This document shows, piece by piece, positions 57,267-64,000 of a DNA stretch of 64,000 nucleotides. The notes beneath the pieces were generated by a model that was not told where the DNA came from, did not search any database, and worked only from the letters and a program-made list of their open reading frames with translations. The first letter of the stretch is position 1. Each line of letters begins with the position of its first letter. Source of the stretch: Gammaproteobacteria bacterium (GTDB lineage Bacteria > Pseudomonadota > Gammaproteobacteria > Ga0077554 > Ga007554); NCBI GenBank assembly GCA_021731145.1, contig JAKFXX010000032.1:1-64000 (forward strand), in the 5' to 3' direction. Made by a program: the position numbers and the translations under genes.

Positions 57267-57599
57267 TTACTCAAAGATCGGGGTCAGCTTCGCAAGCACC
57301 TCGTCCATGACAGACGTCGGTACGCTTTCCAGCTTGCGGGCGTGGAGTGAGCCGAGATCGAGGGCGCGAGGCTGGTCACATCGAACGACCTCCGTTGTGT
57401 TCGTTCCGCCCCCCATGAGCGGCACCGCAAAGCCTGCCGTGCGGGCGAAGTTTCCGCCGCTGGTGATCGGCAGCACTATCGGGGTTTTCGTCAGGCGGTT
57501 GAAGGCGGCTGGCGACACAACGAGGACGGGGCGCGTGCCTTGTTGCTCATGCCCGGAAGACGGATCAAGCGACACCAGGTAAATATCGCCGCGCTCCAT
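57267..57599 (-). CDS. MazF/PemK-family toxin (ChpB-like)
   Basis: The 110-residue endoribonuclease toxin has the family opening MERGDIYLVSLDPSSGHEQQ, the conserved GTRPVLVVSPAAFN, the strand TPIVLPITSGGNFARTAGF and CDQPRALDL. Such toxins cut mRNA at short motifs when the antitoxin is lost. The start overlaps the last base of the antitoxin stop (57599), the usual coupled arrangement. It appears intact. Confidence 0.9.
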   Translation of the reverse strand: MERGDIYLVSLDPSSGHEQQGTRPVLVVSPAAFNRLTKTPIVLPITSGGNFARTAGFAVPLMGGGTNTTEVVRCDQPRALDLGSLHARKLESVPTSVMDEVLAKLTPIFE

Positions 57600-57856
57600 T
57601 ACAGCAGTTCACTACCGACCGGCTTTGCATCGAGCCAGACACGATCTTCGGTGGACAGATCGGCCGAGGCATCACATTGAGCCAGCAGATCGTCCAGGCT
57701 GTAACGTGGGCGCGACTGCGGCTCGATCACCAGGCGGCCGCCATCGACGGCCACGCTGACCGTAGCGCCTGCCTGCAGGTGCAGCAGATCGAGGATGGCA
57801 GGCGGTACGGCCAGCATGACCGAGCCGCCGACCTTGCGGAGATTGGTTGTGTGCAT
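57599..57856 (-). CDS. AbrB/MazE-family antitoxin (ChpS-like)
   Basis: The 85-residue protein has an N-terminal swapped-hairpin DNA-binding domain (NLRKVGGSVMLAVPPAILDL and VSVAVDGGRLVIEPQ). An acidic toxin-binding tail follows (YSLDDLLAQCD, LSTEDRVWLD). It pairs with the downstream toxin. AGGGGG precedes the ATG, and an A/T-rich stretch with TATAAT at 57882-57877 is the likely -10. Autoregulation by binding this promoter is known for the family. Confidence 0.88.
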   Translation of the reverse strand: MHTTNLRKVGGSVMLAVPPAILDLLHLQAGATVSVAVDGGRLVIEPQSRPRYSLDDLLAQCDASADLSTEDRVWLDAKPVGSELL

Positions 57857-57984
57857 AATGCGTCCCCCTGCGGTTTAATTATATTAATGTATAACATATT
57901 CCGCCACGCCATGCAAGCTTATTCGAGACTTTCAATTAGCCCATACCTACACAGACTAAAAAAACAACATTGACAGCAAACGAA

Positions 57985-58013
57985 TTGAACAGTGTTTAAA
58001 TGCGGCTTATAGT
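57985..58013 (+). promoter_or_regulatory. Sigma-70-type promoter of the lipase gene
   Basis: TTGAAC (57985-57990), a 17-base spacer and TATAGT (58008-58013) repeat the promoter at 55759-55787. The predicted start near 58020 gives a leader of about 40 bases. Confidence 0.6.
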
Positions 58014-58058
58014 CGAAACCAATTTCACACACCACCCTCATAAAAGGATTTTTCCACC

Positions 58059-58973
58059 ATGATCAAAACCAGCCTGCTTGTCCGTGTTTTTGGTTTGTTG
58101 CTGTTATTCTCGCCACCCTTCGTTTTCGCGCTGCCATACAACAGTCTTTATGTCTTCGGTGACAGTCTTTCCGATAATGGCAATGCTTACATATTGACGG
58201 GAGGCGTGGTTCCGCCGAGTCCGCCGTATGCGCAACGTTTTTCCAACGGGCCGGTGGCGGTTGAAAATCTGGCTGCGGCGTTCGGAATCGGGCTTGCCCC
58301 TTCTGCACTGGGCGGCACGAACTATGCCGTTGGCGGCGCCACCACAGGTGCCGCGAGCTTTATTCCCCCTTTGAACGGCACAGGCATCAGTACCCAGATT
58401 GGGGCTTTCACGGCCGCATCGCCGGTGTTTGATCCGGCGCGGAGCCTGTTCGTTGTGTGGGGTGGGCCGAATGATTTTTTTCTCAATCCGACTGCCGCGT
58501 CGATTGATCCTGCGGTGACAAATTTGGCAAATGCCATTACGGCGTTGGCGGGGATGGGGGCCGAGCATATCCTGGTGCCGAACATGCCGGATCTGGGGAC
58601 GACACCGTTTGGCCTCTCTCTGGGCGCTCCCGATTCGGCTGGCTTGACGATGTTGAGCCTGGGTTTCAATCAGGGGCTGGCGCAGATGCTGGGGTCGCTG
58701 GATGCAGTGCTTGCGGCCGATATCATACCCTTCGATACCTTTTCCCTGCTAAGCGAGGTGCGGCTTAACTCCTCCGTATACGGCTTTGCGAATGTCAGCG
58801 AGCAATGCTTGGGCAATCCGGCATGCACAGATCCCGATACCTACCTGTTTTGGGATGGCGTGCATCCGACGGCGCGCGGCCATGCCATTCTTGGCGCAAG
58901 CTTTGCCGCAGCGGTGCCAGAGCCGTCGAGCGTTGCGCTTCTTCTGCTAGTGTTTAATTGCGTAAGTTCATGA
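58059..58973 (+). CDS. GDSL-type esterase/lipase, PEP-CTERM tail cut off by a MITE
   Basis: The secreted SGNH hydrolase has a signal peptide (VFGLLLLFSPPFVFA). The nucleophile lies in YVFGDSLSDNGNAY (Ser36), block III is VVWGGPNDFFLNP and the catalytic Asp-His in FWDGVHPTARGH. The C-terminus reads VPEPSSVALLLL, the start of a PEP-CTERM sorting signal, then switches to VFNCVSS and stops because MITE B has inserted. Without the element the frame would continue GLTGILMLRRRKETMAV (314 residues), a complete PEP-CTERM signal with hydrophobic stretch and basic cluster. The catalytic domain is intact, so the present 304-residue enzyme may be released instead of sorted. Confidence 0.88.
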   Translation: MIKTSLLVRVFGLLLLFSPPFVFALPYNSLYVFGDSLSDNGNAYILTGGVVPPSPPYAQRFSNGPVAVENLAAAFGIGLAPSALGGTNYAVGGATTGAASFIPPLNGTGISTQIGAFTAASPVFDPARSLFVVWGGPNDFFLNPTAASIDPAVTNLANAITALAGMGAEHILVPNMPDLGTTPFGLSLGAPDSAGLTMLSLGFNQGLAQMLGSLDAVLAADIIPFDTFSLLSEVRLNSSVYGFANVSEQCLGNPACTDPDTYLFWDGVHPTARGHAILGASFAAAVPEPSSVALLLLVFNCVSS

Positions 58974-59043
58974 TATATGAAAGTTGTTAAAAATCAATTG
59001 CATGACCTAGAATATAATATCGCCAATTAATGCAATTAAACAC
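58950..59043. mobile_element. MITE B (CTAG target, perfect 12-bp inverted ends)
   Basis: GTGTTTAATTGC and GCAATTAAACAC are perfect inverted ends of a 94-base element lying between two CTAG words (58947-58950, 59043-59046), with TA duplicated. Its core (ATATGAAAGTTGTTA to AATATAATATCGCCAA) is about 84% identical to MITE C at 62372. There is no coding capacity. Element plus TA is 96 bases, in phase. Confidence 0.88.
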
Positions 59044-59046
59044 TAG

Positions 59047-59099
59047 GTTTGACCGGGATACTCATGCTGCGGCGTCGGAAGGAGACGATGGCTGTGTAG
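59047..59099 (+). other. Stranded 3' end of the PEP-CTERM lipase gene
   Basis: After the right end of MITE B, the lipase frame (using the duplicated CTAG) resumes as GLTGILMLRRRKETMAV and TAG at 59097-59099. It is no longer translated with the enzyme. The rest of the gap to 59284 carries no gene, only a partial GGTTGGGCT repeat word near 59124. Confidence 0.8.
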
Positions 59100-59284
59100 A
59101 TTTGTGTTGCGCTCACAAGCACGGTTGGGCTAAACGAAATGAGTTTATGGCGCTGACGGCATGGTAAAACGCGCCCCCTTGCATACGCCTTTTTTTCAAC
59201 CTATAGTTTAACGGCGGGGGCACGGCAACAGGTAAGTTGTCCCTTGCGCATAGTCACACTTGCTGCTTGATAAAGGAGGTCACC

Positions 59285-59977
59285 ATGAAACACCAAGGGA
59301 TGCTGCACAAAAGAATCGCTTCAGGCATTTTTGCCGCAACCGTTGCACTGGGGGTTTGTTATTCCGCCCAGGCCGCCGAATTCACTTTCGACAGCACCTT
59401 CGTTCAAAGCGGCACCACCGCGGCCGTCACGTTTCCGCTCCAGCTCTCCAACGTGCAGCAGAACCAAATCACCGCATATTCGATCCAGAGAAGGCCTCAA
59501 GGCTCCACCGTGTGGACCGACGTGACGCAATTGAACTGCGGCGTATCATCATCGTACTCAATGGCATCAAGCTTTATCGCCAGCTCAAGCGGCGTCAACG
59601 GCAATTTTGTCGCCACCTGCGGCCCCGGCGTCAATGCAGGCGATGTGGCGCGATTGTCGGTCACCGTCAATCCGCAACAACCGCTGATATTGGTCGCGGG
59701 TCCTCGCATATTGGCATCGAACAGCACCACCAAGCTGGTCTGGTTGCACAGCGGAGGTTTTTTTCAATGCCAACCGTTTACGCTTAACAACCAACACCCC
59801 GTCTGGAATCCAGGCAACTTTGCTTTGACAAGCCAGCTTTCGACATCGACACAGGGTGACATCAGCCTGGTCGCATCGTCTTCGCCTAAGACCGTGTCTT
59901 TCGCCCTGCAATGTATCCCATCCACCTTCGGGTTCAACATACCTCCCGTGGCCGTAGTGAACGTGACGGTAAACTAA
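59285..59977 (+). CDS. Secreted protein of unknown function
   Basis: The 230-residue protein has a Sec signal peptide (SGIFAATVALGVCYSAQAAE). The mature part is rich in Ser/Thr/Val and looks all-beta, with repeated strand patterns (AAVTFPLQLSN, ARLSVTVNPQQPLILVAGP, PVAVVNVTVN) and four cysteines. The gene start is clear: AAAGGAGG lies seven bases before ATG 59285. No family is recognised. It has no PEP-CTERM tail or lipobox. Confidence 0.6.
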   Translation: MKHQGMLHKRIASGIFAATVALGVCYSAQAAEFTFDSTFVQSGTTAAVTFPLQLSNVQQNQITAYSIQRRPQGSTVWTDVTQLNCGVSSSYSMASSFIASSSGVNGNFVATCGPGVNAGDVARLSVTVNPQQPLILVAGPRILASNSTTKLVWLHSGGFFQCQPFTLNNQHPVWNPGNFALTSQLSTSTQGDISLVASSSPKTVSFALQCIPSTFGFNIPPVAVVNVTVN

Positions 59978-60137
59978 TTCACGCCAGACAAAACCGGGCG
60001 CAGGCTCAATGCAGTGTGTGCTATGCACACCCTGCATTTACATTAACCTGACACCATCTCCGACACTCCCCTTTTTTATAGCTCCCCTTTTGGTTATGCT
60101 TTGTGCGACTCCCGTCAGACCACCAGGTAAATCTCCT

Positions 60138-61145
60138 TTGAACATAGAGCAAAATAGCCGCATCGCTGCCTGGACTGCCGTCGCACTCTTGTTGTTTATA
60201 GCGCTCAACAACCACCTTCTTCCGGCGCTGCTGGCGGGATTGCTTGTCTATGAACTGGTTCACCTGCTCGCTCCGCGCATCCGGTTAAAACAGTTGCAAG
60301 GCGGCAAGGCAAAGATCGCGGTGATTGCCCTGATTGCCGCGTTAATTGTTGGTGGTCTAACGGCGTTGATCGTTGGGGCGACGGTGTTCTTTCGCAGCGA
60401 TGCCGAAAACATTCCCATGCTTCTACAAAAAATGGCCGAGATTCTGGAAAGTTCCAGAGCCATGTTGCCGATCTCACTGGTGCAATATCTGCCAACCGAT
60501 GTGGACGCGCTTAAAGATACCGTTGTTCACTGGCTGAAGGAGCATGCCGGCGAGCTGCAAACAGCAGGAAAGGAGACGGGGCGCATGGCTGCGCACATTC
60601 TGATCGGCATGGTCATCGGCGCGATGATTTCGCTCAGGGAAGTGACAGAGGACCACAGACATGGGCCGCTTGCATCCGCGCTCATCGAACGCGCGTCGCG
60701 CCTTGGCGCTTCCTTCCGCAGGGTGGTTTTCGCCCAGGTGAGAATTGCCGCGCTCAATGCCACTTTTACCGGGATTTATCTGGCGGTTATCCTGCCTTTG
60801 GCGGGCGTTGATTTGCCGCTGGTCAAAACGATGATAGCGCTCACCTTCCTGCTCGGGCTGCTGCCTGTGATCGGGAATCTGCTGTCGAACACCATCATTG
60901 TCATCGTAAGCCTGAGCCTATCGGTTAATGTTGCTCTCGGCTCTTTGGTATTCCTGATTGTGATCCATAAGCTGGAATATTTCCTTAACGCGCGCATCGT
61001 CGGAACGCAGATACGGGCATCCGCCTGGGAATTACTGCTGGCGATGCTGGTAATGGAATCCATCTTCGGATTAATAGGCGTGGTGGCCGCGCCCATTTAC
61101 TATGCCTATATCAAGGACGAACTGTCGGCGAGAAAGCTGATTTAG
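60138..61145 (+). CDS. AI-2E transporter family (PerM/YdiK-like) membrane protein
   Basis: The inner-membrane protein of about 335 residues has seven or eight hydrophobic segments (AAWTAVALLLFIALNNHLLP, IALIAALIVGGLTALIVGA, ILIGMVIGAMISLRE). The C-terminal family block has MIALTFLLGLLPVIGNLLS and HKLEYFLNARIVGTQI, as in AI-2E/PerM proteins. Most members export unknown substrates; the autoinducer link holds for only a few. The start is uncertain. TTG 60138 begins the family-like sequence; ATGs at 60096 and 60009 extend it. No ribosome site is decisive. Confidence 0.75.
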   Translation: MNIEQNSRIAAWTAVALLLFIALNNHLLPALLAGLLVYELVHLLAPRIRLKQLQGGKAKIAVIALIAALIVGGLTALIVGATVFFRSDAENIPMLLQKMAEILESSRAMLPISLVQYLPTDVDALKDTVVHWLKEHAGELQTAGKETGRMAAHILIGMVIGAMISLREVTEDHRHGPLASALIERASRLGASFRRVVFAQVRIAALNATFTGIYLAVILPLAGVDLPLVKTMIALTFLLGLLPVIGNLLSNTIIVIVSLSLSVNVALGSLVFLIVIHKLEYFLNARIVGTQIRASAWELLLAMLVMESIFGLIGVVAAPIYYAYIKDELSARKLI

Positions 61146-61191
61146 CTTGCGCAAGATTCATGAAACCCAGATTGTCCATTAGCATACAACG

Positions 61192-61325
61192 CCGTTCATG
61201 GTGAATTTATCGAGCCATGAACGGCCCTTCGACAGTGTGTGGCGTGTAGGTTGGGTCTCGGCAACTGCTCCATGCGTTGCCCTACCTCCTGCATCCATGC
61301 AGTCGAAGCGAAGCGGACCCAACAT
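61192..61325. repeat. Composite repeat: palindrome relic plus REP-like hairpin with a 48-base insert (R5)
   Basis: 61192-61235 is a degraded copy of the repeat at 2688-2746. It is followed by TAGGTTGGGTC ... AAGCGAAGCGGACCCAAC, the same hairpin as 33970-33996, but with 48 bases inserted at 61258-61305. The insert (GGCAACTGCTCCATGCGTTG to TGCATCCATGCAGTCG) matches the hairpin repeat within pabB at 40342-40387. Confidence 0.75.
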
Positions 61326-61333
61326 TGCACTGC

Positions 61334-62326
61334 TCAAGCCCCGCGCTGCCGCAGCTTCTTCTCCCATTCCAGCGATGTCTTGACGATGACATCCAAATCA
61401 TCATATTGAGGCTGCCAGCCCAGCACTTCGCGGACGCGTTCCGCCTTGGCCACGAGCATCGGCGGGTCGCCGGCACGGCGGGGCATCTCGTGGATGGTCA
61501 ATGGCTGGCCGTGGATGCGCTGCACAGTGTCGAGCACTTCGCGCACGCTGTAGCCGTGACCATAGCCGCAATTAAGGGTAGTGGATGTGCCGCCGTTACG
61601 CAGGTAGTCGAGGGCCTTGAGGTGGGCGGAGGCGAGGTCTTCGACGTGAATGTAATCGCGCACGCCAGTGCCGTCCGGCGTGGGGTAGTCAGTGCCGAAG
61701 ATTGAGACTGAGGGACGTTTACCCACAGCGGCTTCGCAGGCGACCTTGACCAGCAGGGTGGCGTCGCGGGTGGACTGGCCGATGCGGCCTTGCGGATCGG
61801 AACCGGCGACATTGAAGTAACGCAGTACTACATGGCGCAGATCGCTTGCGGCGCTGAGGTCACGCAGCATCCATTCGCTCATCAGTTTCGAGGTGCCATA
61901 GGCGTTGATGGGTGCATTGGGGCTGTCTTCACTGGCGAGGGGACCGTCCGGGATGCCGTACACGGCGGCGGTGGAAGAAAAGATGAAGTGTTTGACGCCT
62001 GCCTCGGCGCAGCATTGCAGCAGATTGCGCGTGCTACAGGTGTTGTTGCCATAGTACTTCAGGGGATTGCTGACTGATTCGGGCACGACGGTGTGCGCCG
62101 CAAAGTGGAGCACGGAGTCGATGTCATGTTCATGCAGCAGGTGTGAAACCAGTGCGTAGTCACCGGTGTCGCCGACGACGAGTTCACCGTGCAACACGGC
62201 ATCGGCAAAGCCACTGTAAAGATTGTCCAGCACGATGACGCGCTCGCCGGCCTCGCCCAGTTGACGCGTCACGTGGCTGCCTATATAACCCGCGCCGCCG
62301 GTGACCAATATGCCTTTTTGTGCCAT
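61334..62326 (-). CDS. galE: UDP-glucose 4-epimerase
   Basis: GalE interconverts UDP-glucose and UDP-galactose. The 330-residue extended SDR protein has the NAD loop ILVTGGAGYIGSHVTRQLGE, the catalytic Ser region FIFSSTAAVYG, the Tyr-Lys pair in NAYGTSKLMSEWML, and GTGVRDYIHVEDLASAHLKA, diagnostic of GalE. It stands alone between repeats and may serve surface polysaccharide synthesis with the dehydratase at 32011. Confidence 0.93.
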   Translation of the reverse strand: MAQKGILVTGGAGYIGSHVTRQLGEAGERVIVLDNLYSGFADAVLHGELVVGDTGDYALVSHLLHEHDIDSVLHFAAHTVVPESVSNPLKYYGNNTCSTRNLLQCCAEAGVKHFIFSSTAAVYGIPDGPLASEDSPNAPINAYGTSKLMSEWMLRDLSAASDLRHVVLRYFNVAGSDPQGRIGQSTRDATLLVKVACEAAVGKRPSVSIFGTDYPTPDGTGVRDYIHVEDLASAHLKALDYLRNGGTSTTLNCGYGHGYSVREVLDTVQRIHGQPLTIHEMPRRAGDPPMLVAKAERVREVLGWQPQYDDLDVIVKTSLEWEKKLRQRGA

Positions 62327-62371
62327 ATAAAATGATCCTTTGCTGTTTTGTGTTCGATTGACAGGCTGTTA

Positions 62372-62451
62372 GCGCTTGACGCCCAATCTAATGCTATATG
62401 AATGTTGTTACAAATCAACTGAATGGCCGATAATATAATGTCGCCAAGCGC
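62372..62451. mobile_element. MITE C (TA duplication, provides the stop codon of the Lon-like gene)
   Basis: The 80-base element GCGCTTGACG ... CGCCAAGCGC lies between TTAG (62369-62372) and CTAG (62451-62454). Its core ATATGAATGTTGTTAC to AATATAATGTCGCCAA is about 84% identical to MITE B, yet its inverted ends differ from those of B. The TAG stop of the neighbouring protease gene is formed at its right junction. Confidence 0.8.
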
Positions 62452-64000
62452 TAGATCGAATCTGCCCCTTTTTTCGCCAAGGCGCGCAGGCGCTCACCCA
62501 TCTTCTGAAGCCGCTCCAGCACTGCCGCGTTAACGGTGCCTTCGGGATAGCTGCCATCGGCCTGCAATTCTCCTGAAGGGAGCCCGGTGAGGATCTGCAA
62601 TGCCTCGTCCACGGTGGAAACGGCGTAGATATAAAATCGTCCATCGGCCACGGCCTTGACTACCTCCTCCTTGAGCATGAGATGCTGGACGTTGCGTCGG
62701 GGGATGATGACGCCTTGCGTCCCGGTCATACCCAGGGCCTTGCACACGGCGTAAAAGCCTTCGATTTTTTCATTGGCCCCGCCAATGGCCTGAATCTCGC
62801 CGCGCTGGTTAATGGAGCCGGTGATGGCGATATCCTGGCGGATCGGGACGTCGGCGAGGGCGGACAGCAGGACGATCAGTTCCGCCGCAGAAGCGCTATC
62901 GCCTTCGACTTCGCCATAACTCTGCTCGAAACCGAGACTGGCGGAGAGCGAGAGCGGGATGTCGCGGGCATAACGCCCCCCCAGGAAGCCGGACAGGATA
63001 AGCACGCCCTTGCTGTGGGTTTTGCCGCTCAGCTTGGCTTCACGCTCGATATTGACAACCCCCTCCTCGCCCAGAAAGACACGCGCGGTGATACGCGCGG
63101 GCCGGCCAAACGCGAAACCTCCCAAATCGTACACGGACAGGCCGTTGATTTGCCCCACCACGGCCCCGGTGACATCCACCATCAGCGTCCCTTCGGTGAT
63201 GAGCTCGTGGATGCGCTCCTCCAGGAGGTTGGAACGGTAGATCCACTCCTCTATGGCCTTTTGCACATGCGCTCTTGAGACCAACGCTTTGCCGTCCCGC
63301 TGAGTCCAGTAGCCGGATTCGCGGATGAGATCGGAGAGGTCGCTGAAGCGTAGCGAGAGTTTCTTCTGGTGGTCCACCCAGCGTGATGCCTGCTCCAGCA
63401 CGGCGGCGCAGGCATCACGGTCAAAGTGGGGCAGCCCTTCATCCTTGCACAGCCGGGCGATGAAACGGCTGTATTGGAGAGGAGTATCATCCTTGCGGTT
63501 TTGTTGAACGTCAAAGTCCGCCTTTACTTTGAAGATGCCAGGGAATTCCTCGTCATAGGCCTGGAGCAGGTAATAAAGGTATGGGCTGCCCACCATTATC
63601 ACCCGCAGGCTGATGGGGATGACCTCGGGCTTGATGCCGGCGGAAGCGATGAATCCGTAGGTTTCCGCGATGTCCTCGATTTTCACCTCGCGCATTTTGA
63701 TGATGCGCTTCAGAGCGTCCCAAGCAAAGGGGCTGCGCAACACATCCAGCACATTGACGAGCAGATAGCCCCCATTGGCTTGCAGGATGGAGCCGGCCTT
63801 GATCATGGTAAAGTCAGTGTACAGAAACCCCAGATGGGCCTTTTTTTCGATGCGCCCCACCAGGTTGTTGTAGGTCGGGTTGCTTTCCTCGATGAGGGGA
63901 GCACCCTGCCTGCCGCTGTTATCCACGACCACATTCACCGCATAGCGGATCATGGGCCGGCGGACGGGTTCCTCGGCCATGCCTGGCGGTTGGAGAGGGG
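62451..64000 (-). CDS. Lon-family (LonB-type) ATP-dependent protease, C-terminal part
   Basis: The gene runs in from the right edge; at least 509 residues are visible and the N-terminal part is missing. The visible AAA+ region includes ILQANGGYLLVNVLDVLRSP (Walker B-like) and sensor-type helices. The C-terminal S16 protease domain has the catalytic Ser in EVEGDSASAAELIVLLSALA and the Lys in IGGANEKIEGFYAVCKALG. This matches the soluble Lon-like proteases of proteobacteria (about 800 residues), not classical Lon. The TAG stop at 62453-62451 is contributed by MITE C; without the element the frame would end at the same place with TAA. Confidence 0.85.
   Translation of the reverse strand, partial: PLQPPGMAEEPVRRPMIRYAVNVVVDNSGRQGAPLIEESNPTYNNLVGRIEKKAHLGFLYTDFTMIKAGSILQANGGYLLVNVLDVLRSPFAWDALKRIIKMREVKIEDIAETYGFIASAGIKPEVIPISLRVIMVGSPYLYYLLQAYDEEFPGIFKVKADFDVQQNRKDDTPLQYSRFIARLCKDEGLPHFDRDACAAVLEQASRWVDHQKKLSLRFSDLSDLIRESGYWTQRDGKALVSRAHVQKAIEEWIYRSNLLEERIHELITEGTLMVDVTGAVVGQINGLSVYDLGGFAFGRPARITARVFLGEEGVVNIEREAKLSGKTHSKGVLILSGFLGGRYARDIPLSLSASLGFEQSYGEVEGDSASAAELIVLLSALADVPIRQDIAITGSINQRGEIQAIGGANEKIEGFYAVCKALGMTGTQGVIIPRRNVQHLMLKEEVVKAVADGRFYIYAVSTVDEALQILTGLPSGELQADGSYPEGTVNAAVLERLQKMGERLRALAKKGADSI

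Follow-up and report, generated by a model that had tools for sequence, protein, structure and literature searches.

The lipase gene discussed here encodes a complete catalytic domain and stops in the middle of what looks like a protein-sorting signal. The locus thus raises the question of what ended the gene at this point and what the new ending could mean for the location of the enzyme. A preliminary description of the window (the whole stretch of 64,000 nucleotides that was analysed) proposed that a MITE had severed the PEP-CTERM signal of a secreted GDSL lipase, and that the insertion might have turned a sorted protein into a free one. The features needed to follow the argument are listed below with the evidence on which each assignment is based.

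58059 to 58973, plus strand: interrupted GDSL-family lipase/esterase, 304 amino acids (open reading frame, PF00657, orthologue alignment)
58914 to 58949, plus strand: retained N-terminal piece of the PEP-CTERM signal, VPEPSSVALLLL (partial match to TIGR02595)
58948 to 58949, no strand: left TA of the target-site duplication, inside CTAG (sequence, empty-site comparison)
58950 to 59043, no strand: IS630-type MITE of 94 bp with 12-bp terminal inverted repeats (sequence, folding, homologous copies)
59044 to 59045, no strand: right TA of the target-site duplication, inside CTAG (sequence, empty-site comparison)
59046 to 59099, plus strand: stranded part of the tail beyond the element, GLTGILMLRRRKETMAV with the stop, untranslated with the lipase (in-silico removal of the element, comparison with genome G001)
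about 62370 to 62453, no strand: older, eroded relative of the element between lon and galE (covariance model, identity of the core)

The protein encoded by the interrupted gene has a Sec-type N-terminus resembling a signal peptide. Its PF00657 domain scores 86.7 bits (cut-off 23.6) and it has kept the catalytic blocks GDSLSDNG, GGPND and DGVHPT, which upholds the claim that the catalytic domain is intact; in the alignment the GDS, GxND and DxxH blocks are invariant across the orthologues. The best solved relative is Lysophospholipase A 8a24 (E = 5e-33), and ChoE is likewise a solved relative. PF00657 is common to the window lipase and the PlaA/ChoE group of GDSL lipases, but the score with the PlaA equivalog model is far below the cut-off (139 of 450 bits), and the lipase differs from that group also in that PEP-CTERM tails are found in its close relatives. 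A toxin-antitoxin pair of the MazE/MazF(PemK) type, at 57267-57856 on the minus strand, lies immediately upstream of the lipase.

The C-terminus of the lipase reads VPEPSSVALLLLVFNCVSS and is followed by a stop. The final seven codons (VFNCVSS) and the stop codon are supplied by the MITE, as had been pointed out in the preliminary description, and the architecture given there for the element, 94 bases with perfect 12-bp inverted ends between two CTAG words, was found in the sequence as described. The inverted repeats are GTGTTTAATTGC and GCAATTAAACAC, and the perfect repeat extends to 15 bp if the flanking CTA and TAG are counted. The arms are 80% complementary over 30 nt, the GC content of the element is 27.7% (56.5% in the window), and its single-strand fold is 4 s.d. 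better than those of shuffled sequences, being beaten by one of 200 shuffles. A role of the element as promoter or terminator was considered and rejected, the consensus scan giving hits near the background level. Rfam gave no match in 57800-63000, and there was no match to the element in plasmid collections, phage collections or viral contigs.

Deletion of 96 bases (the 94 bp of the element and one TA) keeps the frame and yields ...VPEPSSVALLLLGLTGILMLRRRKETMAV, with the stop at 59097-59099. The features defining a PEP-CTERM signal are a PEP motif, a hydrophobic span and a basic cluster (PMC1569441), and all three parts known from the PEP-CTERM/exosortase (EpsH) system (TIGR02595, PF07589; PMC1569441) are present in the ancestral tail of the lipase. 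With TIGR02595, for which the cut-off is 16 bits, the uninterrupted reading scores 29.1 bits and the orthologues 22.6-25.9 bits; PF07589 agrees, giving 24.3 bits for the uninterrupted reading, and the orthologue in genome G003 falls 0.1 bit below the cut-off of that model. The interrupted lipase reaches 14.4 bits with TIGR02595, which is below the cut-off and covers 13 of the 24 model positions. In the window the tail is thus split, and differs in this from the known system (PMC1569441): VPEP and a short hydrophobic piece are translated, whereas most of the hydrophobic span and the whole basic cluster (RRRK) are gone.

An uninterrupted tail without the insert had been predicted for related genomes, and such tails are what the close orthologues carry. 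We compared three of them, those of G001 and G003, which belong to the same genus, and that of G005, which belongs to the same family; their protein sequences are 86%, 81% and 83% identical, respectively, to the interrupted lipase. All three show an exact gap of 96 bases, i.e. the element plus one TA, at the insertion point, and all continue into complete PEP-CTERM tails (e.g. VPEPSSVALLLVGLTGIFMLRCRKETMVV) of the form VPEP...R(R/C)R. The tail is unbroken also in the more distant PEP-tailed members (L013, L014, L016, L044-L051, L054), thus the tail is the ancestral condition of the group; GDSL proteins still further away have C-termini of other kinds. The stranded tail is 87.0% identical to the DNA of G001, compared to 88.2% for the rest of the lipase gene, and is free of frameshift and stop. 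This lack of visible decay means that probably little time has passed since the insertion, which, as judged from these comparisons, would be a recent one.

The identity of the element as a MITE, proposed from its structure, rests by now on other copies and on autonomous elements. Two further full-length copies occupy unrelated loci: one, with 80% identity, was found in G003 by blastn, and the other, which is more diverged, was found via its ends in G006, a genome of the same family; each of these genomes has one intact copy. It must be noted that the covariance model was built from the three copies (window, G003 and G006), thus its scores on them are not independent, and the independent evidence for the G003 and G006 copies is provided by blastn and the end matches. 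When 369 genomes were searched by pattern, two longer and looser MITEs that share these ends turned up in G327, and a reversed control pattern gave zero matches in the same search. The ends of the element also bound a 1142-bp IS in G142, which encodes a 366-residue transposase of the IS630-type DDE_3 family (78 bits); there are five identical copies of this transposase, and the copies examined sit between CTA and TAG. An IS with the same ends, also between CTA and TAG, is present in G327, its transposase being 58% identical to that of G142. Both G142 and G327 are gammaproteobacteria. The other copies and the autonomous IS630-family elements with the same ends identify the window element as an IS630-type MITE.

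This assignment is consistent with what is known of the family. IS630 elements insert at TA, which is duplicated (PMC2170065), and the founding member is cited as preferring TA within CTAG. The window element shares with the IS630/Tc1-mariner ISs the TA duplication in CTAG and the short inverted repeats (PMC2170065), and has ends identical to those of its autonomous relatives with a DDE_3 transposase; it differs from them in being a 94-bp non-coding derivative. It can also be compared with MITEPsy1 of Pseudomonas syringae (PMC3189936), for which derivation from ISPsy2 was suggested. MITEPsy1 is similar in size (~100 bp) and has CTAG-type targets, but creates a 4-nt duplication and has different, 18-nt ends (GGAAGGTCTGAAAAAGCC).

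In the host genome blastn and pattern searches found one intact copy of the element, and the covariance model added one eroded relative. A matching transposase was not found in this 47-contig assembly, which may miss repeats; the gene may have been lost, may lie in an assembly gap or may have gone with another replicon. Contig C31 has an IS630-type fragment at its start; this was considered as a possible parent and rejected, no matching end being seen there. This DDE_3 transposase fragment (G000 contig C31, 1-900, L075) adjoins a CRISPR-like array with the repeat CGGTTCATCCCCACGTGCGTGGGGAACAC. In G003 (C7, L091, region 1055-1920) the MITE copy follows a transposase gene of the IS5 type (DDE_Tnp_1/DUF4096) at a distance of ~10-15 bp and has one outer end altered (CCAGCG for CTAGTG).

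The account that we favour, and consider very probable as a whole, is that an IS630-type MITE inserted into the only CTAG of the gene and cut the PEP-CTERM signal, leaving an enzyme that is presumably soluble. The non-autonomous 94-bp element of the IS630/Tc1-mariner type would have been moved in trans by a transposase recognising GTGTTTAATTGC ends, and entered the CTAG with duplication of the central TA. The 96 added bases keep the frame, and the in-frame TGA after seven element codons ends the protein, which retains the signal peptide, the catalytic domain and VPEP, and has lost RRRK and the greater part of the hydrophobic span. The truncated enzyme would be exported by Sec, would probably be neither recognised nor held by the exosortases XrtA or XrtB, and would end up in soluble form, most likely in the periplasm.

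The sorting machinery assumed by this account is present in the host. An exosortase gene had been predicted elsewhere in the genome, and two were found, XrtA (364.6 bits) and XrtB (415.5 bits), both over the curated cut-offs, along with a weaker XrtM-like match. There are eight other PEP-CTERM matches over the cut-off, thus the machinery can be expected to serve other substrates. According to the current model, an exported protein stays fixed in the inner membrane by its tail until the exosortase has processed it, and then passes the outer membrane by a route that the model leaves undefined (PMC12188702). The published evidence that exosortases sort proteins in Gram-negatives is partial. In a study of a cyanobacterial exoproteome loss of an exosortase lowered the amounts of several, not all, PEP-CTERM proteins (PMC12188702). 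With the membrane segment and the basic cluster lost, handling by the exosortase should fail, and a tail-less lipase exported by Sec would, in a Gram-negative cell, first be soluble in the periplasm. Of the proposal that the lipase became free, the part that it is unanchored therefore stands; that it is released does not follow, as crossing the outer membrane would be a further step. Our expectation is an enzyme dissolved in the periplasm, from which some may leak out; free release is not a necessary outcome, and the truncated lipase might even be less, not more, available outside the cell.

It is possible, and we tentatively keep this in mind, that the lipase is turning into a pseudogene, i.e. 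that the enzyme, deprived of its sorting tail, serves no purpose or is broken down, with the MITE as the first lesion. Since the split from G001 the catalytic part has accumulated 6 synonymous and 6 replacement changes on the window branch and 13 and 6, respectively, on the G001 branch, a faint hint of relaxation in numbers too small to separate constraint from early relaxation; in addition, a second lipase copy was not matched in the host genome. Against this reading, there is no other lesion and all catalytic blocks have been kept. The dN/dS values to the relatives (0.15-0.23) also speak for constraint, although they reflect mostly the time before the insertion and are compatible with a very recent loss of constraint.

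A bolder version of the favoured account, which we regard as improbable, is that a CTAG-seeking MITE disconnected a still-active enzyme from exosortase sorting and so relocated it in one step, and that such events, if recurrent, are a general route by which sorting is lost. CTAG can arise easily in the leucine-rich hydrophobic span of PEP-CTERM tails, as it is formed whenever the codon next to CTA, which encodes leucine, starts with G. If this version were true and recurrent, CTAG-targeted insertions in PEP-CTERM tails would offer a general way out of surface sorting.

Adaptive release, meaning that the insertion was selected because it made a surface- or matrix-bound lipase soluble, seems very unlikely to us. 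The break does take away the sorting tail and leave the catalytic domain intact, but the uninterrupted gene (945 bp), with its 24 TA dinucleotides, offers only one CTAG, the one into which the element went, thus target preference alone accounts for the position of the element and no selection is needed. Moreover, the insertion is present in one genome only, and a second, independent loss of the tail was not seen among the closest relatives. The position would accordingly reflect the availability of a target site, not selection for release. An assembly artefact or a chance palindrome might be suspected from the single intact copy in a 47-contig assembly, but the homologues of the element elsewhere in related genomes, the autonomous ISs with identical ends, the exact TA duplication with its exact 96-base empty site and the eroded relative nearby leave practically no room for it.

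Truncation of a gene by a MITE is an ordinary class of event; it is the target and the clean reconstruction that make this case a useful natural experiment. The case for PEP-CTERM sorting in Gram-negative bacteria is built for the most part on correlations between genomes and on a small number of exosortase mutants. Here nature provides a tailed and an untailed allele of one enzyme, intact in other respects, with which the role of the tail can be tested. The locus is also a clean case of a bacterial MITE providing a new C-terminus and stop codon, for which the empty site, the family and the autonomous relatives have all been identified. In a limited search of the open-licence literature we found no precedent for transposon insertion in PEP-CTERM tails, nor for stop codons supplied by MITEs in bacteria.

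The lipase insertion is probably a later event than the arrival of the eroded relative located 3.4 kb from it in the lon-galE spacer. This relative, marked by the covariance model at 62369-62454, matches the lipase element with 84% identity (E = 6e-12) in its central 57 bp; its ends are eroded and make up another inverted repeat, TAGCGCTTGACG/CGCCAAGCGCTA. Related sequence occurs in the same spacer of G001, G002 and G003 and is absent from G005; its presence in the former three suggests that the family has probably been in the lineage since before the genus diversified. The TAG stop of the lon-like gene overlaps the edge of the eroded relative. Truncation of lon by this relative could be ruled out, because lon ends at the same residue in two related genomes. 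In G001 (C62, L129) the 3' end of lon is altered: between its stop and the old relative of the MITE there is an additional inserted sequence, which takes the place of the last residues of Lon.
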